The notes under the pieces were generated by a model. It did no database searches, was not told where the DNA came from, and saw only the letters and a program-made list of their open reading frames with translations. Shown in pieces: positions 7,111-17,671 of a stretch of 23,978 nucleotides of DNA. Source of the stretch: Candidatus Raymondbacteria bacterium RIFOXYA2_FULL_49_16. Lineage in GTDB: Bacteria; Fibrobacterota; OXYB2-FULL-49-7; XYB2-FULL-49-35. Numbering within the stretch: the stretch's first letter is position 1; every line of letters starts with the position of its first letter. The DNA lies in contig MFYT01000101.1 in the NCBI GenBank assembly GCA_001789205.1, forward strand, positions 1-23,978, in the 5' to 3' direction. The position numbers and the translations under genes were made by a program.

Positions 7111-8883
7111 TTAGGCTACGAACTCGACTGTATTGTAGCCCAGTTTCCTTCCTGTTTCAAGTCCCGCGGTTGTTCCCGCGTCTGCAAGACCCTGAGCGCC
7201 GGTCCCGGCGTAACGGGAAATGCGCATGCTGCCGCGCATACGCCGGCCGCGTTCAGCCAGGTCCCTGCGGAAAAAATTGTTGCCGTCATCGCCGCTTGCC
7301 ACTGTGACTTCGAACCGTTCGACCTTTATGCCGCTCTCTTCGAGCGCGGTCTTAAGCGACTGGACATTATTTTCGACAATATGCTTTACGTTCTCGTTTT
7401 CGACCTGCATGCGCGCAAACACGATGTTGCGTTCAATGTCGAGGCTTATCCGGACCTGGCCCAGGTGTTCCGGCTTCAGCTGGATGTTTATTTCCGAGCC
7501 ATTCGCGCCTTTGAAGAGCTGGAAGCGGGAGATGATCTGTCCGACAATATCTTTTTCATGGGTGTTGGCCGTGGCCGCATTATAATTGGCGCGCGCGGCG
7601 AGGATCTCAGCGGGTGCTGACTGCTGGGGTTCGGTCCTGGGCGCTGTAACCGCATTGGCAATTGCTTCCTTTAGCGCGGCGAGGTCTTTGATGAAGGGGT
7701 TTTTTTCTTCGCTGGTTTCCTGCTTGGTCTCGGGTTCCTGTTTCAGCAGGTCAGCCGCGGTTTCCTGCGGCGTTGCAACGGCTTGCTTCTTTTCAGCAAC
7801 CGCGGGTGATGCGCGCTCTTCGGTCTGTTCAGGCGCCACGTGTGTGTCTGTTTTTTCGTGCTTGCCAGCAGTCTCTTTTATCAAGTTTTTCGCCTGTACG
7901 GCGGTTAGCACAGCCTCAATGATTTCAGGCTTTTCCTGCTTGGCAGTTTCCTGAGTATCGGACGTTTCTTCCGCTGTGGGGGCCGGGTTGTCCGCAATCG
8001 TGGTTTTTTCTTCCGTATCCTGTTCCTGGACCAGGGGGACTTCTGTTTCAGGCTGCGGCTTTTGCGTGCCGGACTGCATGGCCTTAGCTTTGTCTGTGTT
8101 TGTTTCGTCACTGGTTTCAACAACCGCGGCCGAGGTCTGTGGTATAGAAACAGCTGACTCTTGCGTCTGTTCACCGGGTGCGTCTGTTTCTGGTTTCTGA
8201 TCGCTTGTTTGCGCGGACGCATCAGCCGCGGGCGTGTCCTGAATGGAGGAAGCGATAGGGATTGCGCCTGTTTCCTCACCTTTTGAATTTTCAACCACAA
8301 AATCCTTAAGATCAACCAGATTTTTGAGTTCGGTCAGTGTTTCCTTGAGTCCGGTGAGCAGCGCGGCCATGGATTCCACGGACACGTCAGTGTTGTTACC
8401 AAGGAGTTCTGAAATGCGTCCAGCCAGGTCGTCGTTGGCCATTGGCTGTTGCGTTTCACCGGAATTTATTTTTTCAAGAAAGTTTTTAAGCAGCGCCAGG
8501 AGTTGCTTTGCCACGCCAGGCTCTGCCAGGGTTTCCGCGGACACGGTGATGCCCAGCTTTTCAAGCATTTTTTTCACTGATTCGGCTGTTTCGTCTATTT
8601 TCTGGTCGATTTTCGTGGTACCAGCAATGCTTTTTCCCAGTACTTGGGCTGCTTGCGTTGAAGCCTTGTTCTCGTTCGCCACCGCTACCTTGGGATCTTG
8701 GCTGTTGTTGCTCTCAATGTTTTTTCGAAGCGTTACGCTAAAATCGTTTGCCACAGGCTGGTCAATGGCTGTTGATTCAGCCGGTCCCTGGTTTCGCGCT
8801 TCAAGCCCTTCGGACCGCCTTGGCCATTTTGCAACAGGCAGTGAATCGAAGAGCTTATCTATTGATATGGTGCATTTGTTCAT
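7111..8883 (-). CDS. fliK: Flagellar hook-length control protein FliK
   Basis: Molecular ruler that stops hook growth and switches export specificity. The C-terminal Flg_hook domain is at about residues 446-528, with the diagnostic INIQLKPEHLGQVRISLDIE and later ENVQSLKTALEESGIKVERF patterns. The middle (about 190-420) is long, low-complexity and rich in Glu, Thr, Ala, Gln and Lys, with few hydrophobic residues, as expected for a disordered ruler. The start (ATG at 8883, MNKCTISIDKL) has only a weak ribosome binding site and follows the flbB-like stop by 11 bp, so coupling is likely. At 590 aa it is longer than Salmonella FliK (405 aa), which may go with the long hook protein. The last 60 residues after the domain are basic and divergent. 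Confidence 0.93.
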   Translation of the reverse strand: MNKCTISIDKLFDSLPVAKWPRRSEGLEARNQGPAESTAIDQPVANDFSVTLRKNIESNNSQDPKVAVANENKASTQAAQVLGKSIAGTTKIDQKIDETAESVKKMLEKLGITVSAETLAEPGVAKQLLALLKNFLEKINSGETQQPMANDDLAGRISELLGNNTDVSVESMAALLTGLKETLTELKNLVDLKDFVVENSKGEETGAIPIASSIQDTPAADASAQTSDQKPETDAPGEQTQESAVSIPQTSAAVVETSDETNTDKAKAMQSGTQKPQPETEVPLVQEQDTEEKTTIADNPAPTAEETSDTQETAKQEKPEIIEAVLTAVQAKNLIKETAGKHEKTDTHVAPEQTEERASPAVAEKKQAVATPQETAADLLKQEPETKQETSEEKNPFIKDLAALKEAIANAVTAPRTEPQQSAPAEILAARANYNAATANTHEKDIVGQIISRFQLFKGANGSEINIQLKPEHLGQVRISLDIERNIVFARMQVENENVKHIVENNVQSLKTALEESGIKVERFEVTVASGDDGNNFFRRDLAERGRRMRGSMRISRYAGTGAQGLADAGTTAGLETGRKLGYNTVEFVA

Positions 8884-11853: not shown

Positions 11854-12381
11854 TTAGACATAGTACTTACTTGTTCCTTTTATGCTGACCATCTCGCCAA
11901 AATACATTCTGTGATAATCCTTTTTCGGATACATGGCATGGGCTTTTTTGGTCAGAAAACGCCGCGGTGCAAGATCGTCAAAGTACATTTTCCTGCATTC
12001 AACGATCAGCTCAGCTTCAGCATAGCCTGGCGCGCCGATCTTTGATGACGCCAGGGGCGTAAGGCCGGATGCGGCGATTTTGTCAATGTCCCTGCCTGAT
12101 TTTGATCCGCACAGGGAAAGGGCCTTCCTGTATTTTACGGGAAACGAGCACAGGGTAAAGGTATCGTATTTTTCCATGAACGTGTATGTATGGCGTACCG
12201 GGCGGACAAGGACCATTGCCATGGGCATGCCCCAGATGACGCCAAAAGCGCCCCAGCCAACGGTCATCATGTTGTAGGCGTCTTTACTGAAATCTCCCGC
12301 GGTAAGCAGGAGCCAGTCTTTTTCCCATTGCTTTGACACGGACACAATAAAATCGTTCGGCGCTATTTTTTTTAGTTTCAT
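11854..12381 (-). CDS. Flavin reductase-like (FMN-binding) domain protein
   Basis: A 175-aa protein of the flavin reductase-like split-barrel family (Pfam Flavin_Reduct type), which binds FMN and usually serves as an NAD(P)H:flavin oxidoreductase or a diflavin electron carrier. Recognisable stretches are LLTAGDFSKDAYNMMTVGWG (residues about 25-45, the flavin-binding opening), the VLVRPVRHTYTFMEKYDTFT strand-loop, and the SFPVKYRKALSLCGSKSGRDIDK segment. It has no signal peptide or membrane span. An AAAGGAG ribosome binding site precedes the ATG. It lies 107 bp upstream of the esterase gene on the same strand and is divergent from the beta-mannosidase. Its link to sugar metabolism is not clear; it may simply be a neighbour. 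Confidence 0.85.
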   Translation of the reverse strand: MKLKKIAPNDFIVSVSKQWEKDWLLLTAGDFSKDAYNMMTVGWGAFGVIWGMPMAMVLVRPVRHTYTFMEKYDTFTLCSFPVKYRKALSLCGSKSGRDIDKIAASGLTPLASSKIGAPGYAEAELIVECRKMYFDDLAPRRFLTKKAHAMYPKKDYHRMYFGEMVSIKGTSKYYV

Positions 12382-14985: not shown

Positions 14986-15918
14986 TTATTGGAACACCGT
15001 CATCCGTTTCTCAACAAGCGCGGCCATTGTCTGTTTAAGGTCCGGCGCCAGGAACGAATCCTCAATGCATTCCTTCATCCGCGGCAAAGCAACACAAAGC
15101 TGCCTGTACATCGCGTCACGCTGGCGAACAGAAAGCTCAAGCGATCCGGCCAGCGCATTGAAGTCCGCGCGTACCAAACCCGATTTTTTTCCATTGATAG
15201 TCAGCGCGGTCTCCTCCCTGTCTTCAGGCATGGCCAGGACCGTGGAGACCAGATCGTATGCAGGGCTTAACCTGATACCCTGGGGTGACTGTATCAGGGA
15301 ATAATTCTTAAGATGCATGTCCGCGTTTCCAGATACGAAAGAAAAGACCGCCCTTAAAAATAAATCGAGCGCATCAATGCCGGGATATACGCTGTAGCGC
15401 CGGAGCAGCCTTCCTACCCGTTCGACCGAGCCCTTGTACTTGTCTTCCGTCAGCCGTTCCGATACCTGGCACAGGTCTTCCATTGCCGTCTTTGCACCTG
15501 TTTTGTCCCTGTCGATCCTGCGGCTGATAAAACAGAGTTCTCTGGAACCAAGCCGGACTAGCCCGCAAGGGACAATGGGTATGCCTGCCAGCGCGGCGCA
15601 GCGCATGACTAATTCTTCGTTCTCAGGTAAACAAGGATACTCCTCAACCGGCGGTTTAAGGACAAAACGGCCCCACATTCCCACAATGGTGAAACGTGAC
15701 CGCCCGCCTTTTTTCTCAATACCAAGCGAAAGTTTTTTCTGGACACCGGTCACGGAAATGCGGTTGAGTACATTATATGCGGCGTATTCTTTGAGTTTTT
15801 CGAGAGTAAGGTCCATTTCCGGCACTGGTGAGGAATCGAAAAATGCTTTACTGCATGGAGCATGATAATCCGTGCCGGGGTCCAATTCCTTACGGCACAA
15901 AAGGCATTGATTACGCAT
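14986..15918 (-). CDS. HipT-like serine/threonine kinase toxin (HipBST system)
   Basis: HipA-fold kinase lacking the N-terminal HipA subdomain, as in the tripartite HipBST system where HipT phosphorylates an aminoacyl-tRNA synthetase (TrpS in E. coli). Seen: an N-terminal zinc-knuckle-like Cys5/Cys8/His19/Cys22; a Gly-rich loop SVTG at 55-58, equivalent to the autophosphorylated S-x-S loop of HipT, here Ser55 and Thr57; ATP-binding Lys88 (RFVLKPP); catalytic GNADMHLKN with Asp200; and metal-binding Asp222 (SPAYDLVS). All kinase residues are intact, so the toxin should be active. Length 310 aa. The ATG overlaps the hipS-like stop by 8 nt, with GGAGG just upstream. The target here is unknown. 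Confidence 0.88.
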   Translation of the reverse strand: MRNQCLLCRKELDPGTDYHAPCSKAFFDSSPVPEMDLTLEKLKEYAAYNVLNRISVTGVQKKLSLGIEKKGGRSRFTIVGMWGRFVLKPPVEEYPCLPENEELVMRCAALAGIPIVPCGLVRLGSRELCFISRRIDRDKTGAKTAMEDLCQVSERLTEDKYKGSVERVGRLLRRYSVYPGIDALDLFLRAVFSFVSGNADMHLKNYSLIQSPQGIRLSPAYDLVSTVLAMPEDREETALTINGKKSGLVRADFNALAGSLELSVRQRDAMYRQLCVALPRMKECIEDSFLAPDLKQTMAALVEKRMTVFQ

Positions 15919-16234
15919 TGCCGCCCTCCACGCGTACCGCGCCTATGCAGTCCCGGCATACGGTAAGCAAAAGGCCCATCCGGTCTTTTTCATCCAGTTT
16001 CCAGTTTCGTGCGGTAATGGACAGAAGCCATCCTTCGGGAATTAAGCCGTCAAAAAAGGGAATCATGGTCTTTGATTCGTACGGCTCGTTCCGGAGGGGA
16101 AGGGTGACGCTGACAGGTTCAGCGTCCGGCAGGCCAAGATATGCCTGATCGTATGAAAAATAATATCCGGCATCAGACTCCCCGATGATACCCGCGAAAC
16201 GGGACTTGACGTAGACCTTACCGCGCCGCATCAT
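15911..16234 (-). CDS. HipS-like antitoxin (HipA N-terminal subdomain as separate protein)
   Basis: A 107-aa protein corresponding to the N-subdomain 1 of HipA, made as a separate polypeptide; in HipBST this subunit (HipS) neutralises HipT. Family features: VYVKSRFAGIIGES and YLGLPDAEPVSVTLPLR near the N-terminus, the conserved PFFDGLIPEGWLL at 59-71 (HipA proteins have FxNLLPEG) and CIGAV at 96-100 (matching GxxxIGAV). The start MM is inside the last codons of the hipB-like gene (17-nt overlap), with AAAGGA about 8 nt upstream. It is a true separate gene, not a frameshifted HipA: both junctions have their own start codons and ribosome binding sites, and the kinase gene is in another frame. 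Confidence 0.88.
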   Translation of the reverse strand: MMRRGKVYVKSRFAGIIGESDAGYYFSYDQAYLGLPDAEPVSVTLPLRNEPYESKTMIPFFDGLIPEGWLLSITARNWKLDEKDRMGLLLTVCRDCIGAVRVEGGNA

Positions 16235-16451
16235 CTTCGATTTCCTTTATAGAAAGCGGGCCGGCGCTATGTCCAAAAAGTCCAAGGATCTGGTTGAGTC
16301 TGTCAAGACGGATGGTTTTTTTCCCCTGTTCAACATCACGGACAAAACGGAGGCCGACCCCTGCTTTGACTGCCAGCTCAACTTGGGTCAGGTGCAGTTC
16401 CTTCCGCTTTTCTTTTAAAAATTGTGAAAAAACATTTCGTTTTTTATTCAT
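16218..16451 (-). CDS. HipB-like HTH regulator
   Basis: A 77-aa Xre/Cro-family DNA-binding protein heading the hipBST-like operon. The helix-turn-helix covers about residues 21-44 (LTQVELAVKAGVGLRFVRDV then EQGK), with the EQGKKTIRLDRLNQILGLFG segment typical of HipB. It would repress its own promoter through the three palindromes upstream, as HipB does in E. coli. The ribosome binding site AAAAGG, 6 nt before the ATG, is itself part of the first palindrome. The downstream hipS- and hipT-like genes overlap in series, which argues for a fixed ratio of all three products. Confidence 0.9.
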   Translation of the reverse strand: MNKKRNVFSQFLKEKRKELHLTQVELAVKAGVGLRFVRDVEQGKKTIRLDRLNQILGLFGHSAGPLSIKEIEDDAAR

Positions 16452-16453
16452 GT

Positions 16454-16471
16454 TATACCTTTTAGGGTATA
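16454..16471. promoter_or_regulatory. hipBST operator 1
   Basis: Palindrome TATACC, 6 bp, GGTATA, immediately upstream of the hipB-like start codon. It contains the ribosome binding site, so the bound region overlaps the translation start zone. The E. coli HipB operator is TATCC, 8 bp, GGATA, so the half-sites are closely related in form. Confidence 0.8.
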
Positions 16472-16492
16472 GATATTACTTAATTCGTTAAT

Positions 16493-16521
16493 AATATACC
16501 TTAAAGGGTATAAAAATACAA
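16493..16521 (-). promoter_or_regulatory. hipBST promoter
   Basis: On the minus strand, TTGTAT (16516-16521) and TATATT (16493-16498) are separated by exactly 17 bp. The -10 matches five of six consensus bases and the -35 matches three of six. Predicted start near 16486 gives a leader of about 35 nt. Operator 2 lies between and over these elements. Confidence 0.65.
16495..16512. promoter_or_regulatory. hipBST operator 2 (core promoter)
   Basis: Same 18-bp palindrome form as operator 1 (TATACC, 6 bp, GGTATA), 41 bp away. It fills most of the space between the proposed -35 and -10 and overlaps the -10, so binding should block RNA polymerase directly. Confidence 0.8.
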
Positions 16522-16534
16522 GTTATTAATTATT

Positions 16535-16552
16535 TATATCAGTTCGGGTATA
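16535..16552. promoter_or_regulatory. hipBST operator 3 (one mismatch)
   Basis: TATATC, 6 bp, GGTATA: one base off the other two operators and 40 bp from operator 2. The even spacing of the three sites, close to four helical turns, puts them on the same DNA face. Confidence 0.65.
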
Positions 16553-16615: not shown

Positions 16616-17671
16616 TCAGACCCGCGTTGTCAGATACATGGGAAGATATTGGACGCGCGGCGCCTTTTCCGTTTTTCCAAGCGCAATTTCAGCAGCCAGG
16701 CGGCCCATGTATTCAGCGTTCCATGTGCAGTACCAGACCGGTTTCTGATGTATGAGCGTGGGCTGTTCTTGCTGTGAAAACGCCACCACATCGTAGGCCG
16801 CGGCCTCGGTGGGCGCCTTTTCAAGCAGTACGTCCTTGACTATTTGTAGAAGGTCCGAGTCCGGGACAATGATGCCTTTGCAGTGGGAATGCTTTTCAAG
16901 AATGCGGCTTATCGCGACTACCGGTTCCTCATGCACCCGCAGCGCAACTTTTTTCCACAGGCAGACGCAATTCAGTTTTTTTGCGGCTTCTGACGAACCC
17001 TTCCAGCGCATGATGTTCGCCCTGTTGAACACCCGGGAATAGGTATGGTAGGGGTGGAGAAAAAGGAAGCGCCGGTGTCCCTTTTCAAATAGCTTTTTTA
17101 CCGCAAGCTCGCCGCCCTGGATGTTGTTTGGCAGTACCATGTGTTTTTTACTATACGCGTCGAAAAGGTCCGCGTGCACAATGGGTATGCGCAGGCGTTC
17201 TATCTCCCTCCGGAGAGGCCGGTCATCTAGTTCCACGGTAATGAGGGCTGTGATACCCAGGGCATGGATCTCCTGGTATATCTCCTGTATTGTCTTGTTC
17301 CTGGTCCGGATAATATAAAGGTGGCTTTTGGTCTTGTTCGCCACGTGTTCTATGCCCTTGAAAATATACTGGTAATAGGAACCCGCAAGCGATGAAAACA
17401 GGGAGAGAACAAGGACGCCAAACCTGTTTTTTAACGGTTGCAGCGCAGGAAGCAAGGCGGTTCCATGGCGCACGAAAGTGCCTTTTGACCGGATTCCCAC
17501 CACAAGCCCTTCCTCCTGTAATAGCCGTATGGCGCGTTTTATTGTGCCTCTTGAGCAGCAAAGCGTAAGGGCCAGCTGTGTTAGATGCGGCAATTGGGCT
17601 GAAGGGGGATAGATACCTTCAAGTATGTCTTTGCGTAGCTTGTTATAGATGGAAAGGTATCTCATTTCCAT
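16616..17671 (-). CDS. GntR-HTH / LacI-type sensor transcriptional regulator
   Basis: Sugar-responsive repressor type: a GntR winged helix (residues about 5-69, with the LPHLTQLALTLCCSRGTIKR recognition helix and EGLVVGIRSKGTFV wing) fused to a LacI/periplasmic-binding-like effector domain (about 83-351, FGVLVLSLFSSLAGSYYQYI, HRRFLFLHPYHTY). AraR of Bacillus has the same layout. It is divergent from the type IX-secreted protein gene 149 bp away, which is a likely target. The ribosome binding site is poor. A perfect TATAAT lies at 17688-17693 (minus strand), implying a very short leader, and a small palindrome (CCAT, 3 bp, ATGG) overlaps the start codon and could be its own operator. The effector is unknown. 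Confidence 0.88.
   Translation of the reverse strand: MEMRYLSIYNKLRKDILEGIYPPSAQLPHLTQLALTLCCSRGTIKRAIRLLQEEGLVVGIRSKGTFVRHGTALLPALQPLKNRFGVLVLSLFSSLAGSYYQYIFKGIEHVANKTKSHLYIIRTRNKTIQEIYQEIHALGITALITVELDDRPLRREIERLRIPIVHADLFDAYSKKHMVLPNNIQGGELAVKKLFEKGHRRFLFLHPYHTYSRVFNRANIMRWKGSSEAAKKLNCVCLWKKVALRVHEEPVVAISRILEKHSHCKGIIVPDSDLLQIVKDVLLEKAPTEAAAYDVVAFSQQEQPTLIHQKPVWYCTWNAEYMGRLAAEIALGKTEKAPRVQYLPMYLTTRV

Follow-up and report, generated by a model that had tools for sequence, protein, structure and literature searches.

Three TATACC-N6-GGTATA palindromes lie upstream of hipB in the window (the whole stretch of DNA analysed, 23,978 nucleotides). They are very probably operators through which a hipBST operon regulates itself, set in a rigid array at which HipB would repress its own expression with cooperative contacts between neighbouring sites; we put the probability of this reading at roughly 0.9. 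Pairs of the same palindrome at the same spacing also occur in phage genomes without hip genes, where they may act as decoys for HipB.

Three evenly spaced palindromes precede a hipBST operon

Genes were assigned using Pfam and NCBIfam searches. The features of the locus, in coordinates of the window, are as follows.

14986..15918, minus strand: hipT, 310 aa, HipA_C kinase (2e-40, and relatives)
15911..16234, minus strand: hipS, 107 aa, homologue of HipA N-subdomain-1 (Couple_hipA, 2e-25)
16218..16451, minus strand: hipB, 77 aa, HTH repressor (TIGR03070 couple_hipB, 74.3 bits, above the cut-off; HTH_3)
16454..16471, no strand: putative operator O1, TATACCTTTTAGGGTATA, 0 mismatches to TATACC-N6-GGTATA, ending 2 bp short of the hipB ATG
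16458..16461, minus strand: Shine-Dalgarno AAGG, from sequence, within O1 and 6 nt ahead of the hipB ATG (16451)
16493..16498, minus strand: -10 box TATATT, from sequence, 5/6 consensus bases, 17 bp past the -35 box
16495..16512, no strand: putative operator O2, TATACCTTAAAGGGTATA, 0 mismatches
16516..16521, minus strand: -35 box TTGTAT, from sequence, weak, 3/6 consensus bases
16535..16552, no strand: putative operator O3, TATATCAGTTCGGGTATA, 1 mismatch, upstream of the promoter

The genes run in the order hipB-hipS-hipT and overlap by 17 and 8 nt, and in profile searches Couple_hipA was confined to hipS and HipA_C to hipT. Judged by this anatomy, the operon is a tripartite hipBST toxin-antitoxin module, in which by homology HipS would be the antitoxin and HipT the toxin. 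Residues 31-44 of HipB, a stretch that takes in the expected recognition helix, are near-invariant among 81 homologues. The array occupies the gap between the hipB start and the stop codon of a GntR-type gene (16616-17671, minus strand), the product of which has a GntR HTH and a weakly matching Peripla_BP_3 sugar-binding domain.

The first-pass annotation had described two exact palindromes and one with a single mismatch, with centres 41 and 40 bp apart. A pattern scan of the window confirmed this for O1-O2 and O2-O3, respectively, and at up to 2 mismatches the three sites were the sole matches within the window. Dinucleotide shuffles of the window averaged 0.27 matches, and 1 shuffle of 100 reached 3 or more, a count that leaves the clustering of the sites aside. 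In the entire 5.43-Mb genome, exact TATACC-N6-GGTATA occurs only as O1 and O2 of the window. A regulon, which had been proposed to lie elsewhere in the genome, found no backing, as the search for further sites gave no second pair genome-wide. The nearest single-mismatch site by eye, TATACCCTTAAGGGGATA at C2:29015 (L313 position 3016), was rejected as a regulon candidate because it lies within an 887-codon ORF, at the 5' end.

O2 occupies the 17-bp spacer between the -35 and -10 boxes and overlaps the -10 box by 4 bp, as the first-pass annotation had it. The -35 box is weak, and a sigma-70 promoter scan called nothing over the array. The placement of the ribosome-binding site in O1 was likewise correct, with AAGG at 16461-16458. 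This overlap brings in the possibility that O1 is chiefly an RNA hairpin masking the ribosome-binding site, and the predicted structure does contain a UAUACC/GGUAUA stem around AAGG. The fold is weak, however (-5.5 kcal/mol, z -1.4, with 18 of 200 shuffles equally stable), and O2 overlaps the promoter, with O3 further upstream and outside the transcript. We consider it very unlikely that O1 acts mainly as such a hairpin.

The array is conserved across hipBST loci

Relatives of the operon were sampled solely by HipT similarity (43-50% identity). The sample covered Bacteroidota, Cloacimonadota, Ignavibacteriae, Fibrobacteres, KSB1, Dadabacteria, one contig labelled Methanimicrococcus and four viral contigs. 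A consensus scan placed O1 at about -20, O2 at about -61 and O3 at about -102 from the hipB ATG in most of them. With the window counted in, the set comprised 76 non-redundant upstream regions of hipBST. All of them have 2-4 sites each, giving a total of 231 sites compared to 0.95 in dinucleotide shuffles. Adjacent steps measured 40-42 bp in 149 of 155 cases (41 bp in 103, 40 bp in 35 and 42 bp in 11), and two of the six remaining steps stem from one weak extra match. The O3-O2 and O2-O1 steps are about equally rigid. Between loci the half-sites are 88-90% identical and the spacers 48% (37% when shuffled). The strongly conserved number, position and spacing at orthologous loci support the assignment of the palindromes as hipBST operators. 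Lack of conservation there, which had been named in advance as grounds for abandoning this assignment, was checked for; the array is conserved, so the assignment survives.

A TAnnTTTG motif, which we take to be the -7 promoter box of the Bacteroidota type, ends exactly on base 2 of O1 in 37 of the 40 loci where O1 begins with TG. O1 departs from TATACC in these Bacteroidota-type loci because the -7 box overlaps its start. The window has a sigma-70-like promoter with O2 at the -10 box and the Bacteroidota have the -7 box at O1; the promoter has thus moved and the array has stayed in place. The array also accompanies plasmid-borne hipBST operons (L315-L318), namely those of Runella slithyformis (conjugative plasmid pRUNSL02, L315), Hymenobacter psoromatis (weaker sites), Bacteroides finegoldii and Persicobacter.

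TATACC pairs mark hipB loci in cellular genomes

Cellular genomes were searched for two TATACC-N6-GGTATA sites at any spacing of 22-52 bp. The search covered 167 genomes of the window's phylum, 247 of Bacteroidota and 241 of one order, the last two sets overlapping in part (~650 genomes). It returned 29 distinct places, all with a spacing of 40-41 bp, and 28 of these were at hipBST, at a lone hipB or at decayed hip genes. The reversed pattern gave 0 matches in the cellular genomes searched. The pair is thus a near-exclusive mark of the hipB family in these genomes, and TATACC-N6-GGTATA pairs at 40-41 bp can serve as a sequence signature for hipB loci.

The one exception, in genome G663 (L578:8531-8589), is a pair with no hip gene nearby. 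With a looser pattern applied to five further genomes and excluded from the count, genome G171 showed a 39-bp pair away from hipBST, within a long inverted repeat. A pair is retained at a decayed hipB in genome G333 (L312:6672-6970), and at L579, L580 and L581 pairs survive at a hipB without hipS and hipT or at a hipT remnant.

The GntR/LacI-type gene adjacent to the array (16616-17671) raises the question of whether the palindromes are sites of another regulator, such as the protein encoded by that gene. This is extremely unlikely, since the pair tracks hipB regardless of the neighbouring genes in 28 of 29 places among ~650 genomes, and the relatives gathered via HipT alone nevertheless all have the sites.

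The fixed spacing points to probable contacts between neighbouring HipB complexes

By homology with the HipBST systems of Legionella and E. coli, we infer that HipB binds the palindromes of the window and represses the operon. One HipB dimer would occupy each 18-bp site (TATACCC-N4-GGGTATA type). HipB bound to O2 would block RNA polymerase at the promoter, HipB bound to O1 would cover the start region and the ribosome-binding site, and O3 would be occupied further upstream. HipB or HipB2S2T2 complexes on adjacent sites may contact one another in a set geometry, with cooperative binding as the result. As the 40-41-bp repeat is kept to about one base, such contacts between neighbouring complexes, and cooperative binding through them, are likely.

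The operators might alternatively be independent, with their spacing set by constraints of the promoter and translation start and no contact between neighbours. O1 does lie at the start codon, and in Bacteroidota it overlaps the -7 box; the Legionella data suggested that occupancy is intermediate, with no clear cooperativity (PMC10653801). Three observations argue against independence. The O3-O2 step is as rigid as O2-O1 though no gene start lies between O3 and O2; the step is the same in the window and in Bacteroidota although the promoter is placed differently; and phage pairs without any hip gene, described below, keep 40-41 bp. We therefore regard independent operators as unlikely and favour cooperative contacts in a rigid array.

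The first-pass annotation had described the operators as helically phased. The spacing, nearly always 40-42 bp, supports this with a reservation. If a turn takes 10.5 bp, 40-42 bp corresponds to 3.8-4.0 turns (3.8-3.9 for 40-41 bp), which would put neighbours almost but not quite on the same face; whole turns result only at ~10.25 bp per turn (3.9-4.0 turns for 40-41 bp). Other types of hipBST operator are spaced at 31 and 61 bp (L079), 61-62 bp (L104-L115), 70 bp (L103) and 71-72 bp (Legionella). All of these spacings come close to an integral number of turns for a repeat slightly below 10.5 bp, a period that was fitted post hoc. It is plausible that neighbouring sites are on one face of the DNA. 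The hipBST of L079, a contig labelled as the archaeon Methanimicrococcus, has sites 61, 61 and 31 bp apart. The array offers a fixed ruler for modelling HipBST-DNA assemblies.

TATACC pairs occur at the same spacing in phages

Viral contigs were searched for pairs with free spacing as in the cellular genomes, and the matches were grouped into families by similarity of the pair. We found 89 viral stretches; subtracting one true hipBST locus left 88, in 38 families. The spacing was 40-42 bp in 33 of the 38 families (binomial p ~1e-28), and the inner six bases, which the search left unspecified, agree with the profile of hipBST operators (p 5e-35). A control pattern matched in shape and composition gave 0 matches in the viral contigs, and chance was for this reason rejected as the source of the phage pairs. 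Each of 22 whole viral contigs (17-366 kb) has exactly one pair. No HipB above the cut-off was found in 28 whole viral contigs, with weak matches in 2. The idea that the pairs are operators of a phage-encoded HipB was rejected on this ground.

Examples of the viral pairs (L127-L215 and others) are L129:3899-3956, L169:11839-11897 and L378:923-981. They are set in unrelated intergenic gaps: some are ahead of a head protease gene, others ahead of a glycosylase-like gene, and those in L169, L195, L209, L156 and L177 are between or beside tRNA genes. Near-identical phages are without the pairs. L321 has ~60 bp more than the near-identical, pair-less L323 and L324, and in L232 the two flanking sites are additional to what the near-identical L234 and L235 have; for the L378-L380 group, substitutions distinguish the pair from the sequence of relatives that lack it. 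A pair is present in 3 of 80 head-protease relatives, and its place is not shared by all three. The nearest named relatives of one viral family are Nonlabens (Bacteroidota) phages, and three phage regions compared with named phages by blastn gave 0 matches. Separately, 16 viral contigs without hipBST (for example L128, L136, L140, L171, L181 and L198) have TATACC pairs 27 bp apart. These may be sites of another regulator and were kept apart from the candidate decoys.

hipBA-type pairs in phages keep the hipBA step

The viral contigs were likewise searched, with free spacing, for pairs of TATCC-N8-GGATA sites. Among the matches listed, 42 of 49 viral families have a spacing of 27-28 bp, which is the O1-O2 step of the K-12 hip operators, 112 of 120 viral stretches have exactly two sites, and 6 of 126 viral TATCC pairs are near hipA. 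Enterobacterial phages (L443-L562, among the matches listed) carry a single TATCC-N8-GGATA pair at 27-28 bp, mostly without hipA nearby. In Escherichia phage SaltyDalty (L583:12365-12410) the sites at 12365 and 12393 are the genome's only ones at up to 1 mismatch. ECP1 (NC_049926, L584:8492-8537), the recorded host of which is MG1655, has an exact site at 8492 and one with one mismatch at 8520. Both pairs adjoin a hairpin that resembles a terminator, close to the lysis genes and distant from the repressor region. Lambda has 0 pairs, and HK639 and mEp390 have 0 in the stretches examined. TATCC pairs spaced at 51 bp were rejected as decoys; they resemble phage immunity operators, and the L482 pair has a divergent HTH repressor gene beside it.

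Phage pairs may be decoys for host HipB

Host-type operator pairs at host spacing are thus found in phages without hip genes. From sequence comparison, a single pair of host hip operators, cognate in both sequence and spacing (hipBST 40-41 bp, hipBA 27-28 bp), may serve phages as a decoy for HipB, a reading to which we give somewhat less than even odds. The differing origins of the pairs, their single copy, their placement in any permissive gap and their constant spacing are as expected of a decoy. The pair would titrate HipB or retain the inactive HipB-toxin complex on the phage genome, and would thereby blunt a kinase toxin-antitoxin defence. The fixed spacing in phages would mean that the recognised unit is a pair of contacting complexes. 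Some of the hipBA-type sites could instead serve a regulator, of the phage or of the host, with similar specificity, and it is possible that phages place a gene under HipB control. A 40-41-bp ruler in phages without hipBST suggests phage mimicry of toxin-antitoxin operators. If this is correct, Hip kinase modules would be linked to phage defence, and phages would have a counter-defence consisting of DNA sites alone.

Comparison with known hip systems

The window array resembles that of E. coli K-12 hipBA in having several 18-bp palindromes ahead of hipB, the product of which is an autorepressor in K-12. The K-12 system has two genes, however, and four TATCC-N8-GGATA sites 28, 39 and 28 bp apart, and the window fits neither this sequence nor these steps. 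The E. coli O127:H6 hipBST operon, like that of the window, has three genes with short overlaps. HipB of E. coli O127 represses its own promoter (PMC10627512), and in O127:H6 HipB alone is sufficient for this repression (PMC10627512, PMC6581861). In the literature searched, we found no description of the O127:H6 hipBST operators, nor a paper describing the TATACC array. Divergent hipBST loci of the window's own phylum (L104-L115) also have paired palindromes across the hipBST promoter, but these are of the TGCAATATATTGCA type and 61-62 bp apart, unlike the TATACC sites of the window at 40-41 bp. No description of these sites was found in the literature searched either.

The closest format is that of Legionella HipBST, which has three evenly spaced 18-nt operators with 6-nt inverted repeats (PMC10653801). 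Legionella HipB binds its operators in gel shifts, and HipT and HipS add to the complex (PMC10653801). The window array likewise consists of three even 18-bp sites of 6-N6-6 form over the promoter of a hipBST operon. The first-pass annotation had treated the 6-bp spacer, in place of 8 bp, as a departure from the E. coli type; this does not stand, as both types span 18 bp and 6-N6-6 is the Legionella format (PMC10653801). The two arrays differ in sequence and step: Legionella operators have 53-bp gaps (71-bp steps), and at the hipBST of L. adelaidensis (NZ_LR134418, L314) the sites are of the TTACTG-N6-CAGTAA type with steps of 71-72 bp, whereas the window has TATACC-N6-GGTATA sites at 40-41 bp. 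Set against the literature searched, the TATACC array at 40-41 bp appears new in its sequence and step, and its three-site 6-N6-6 format is already known from Legionella.
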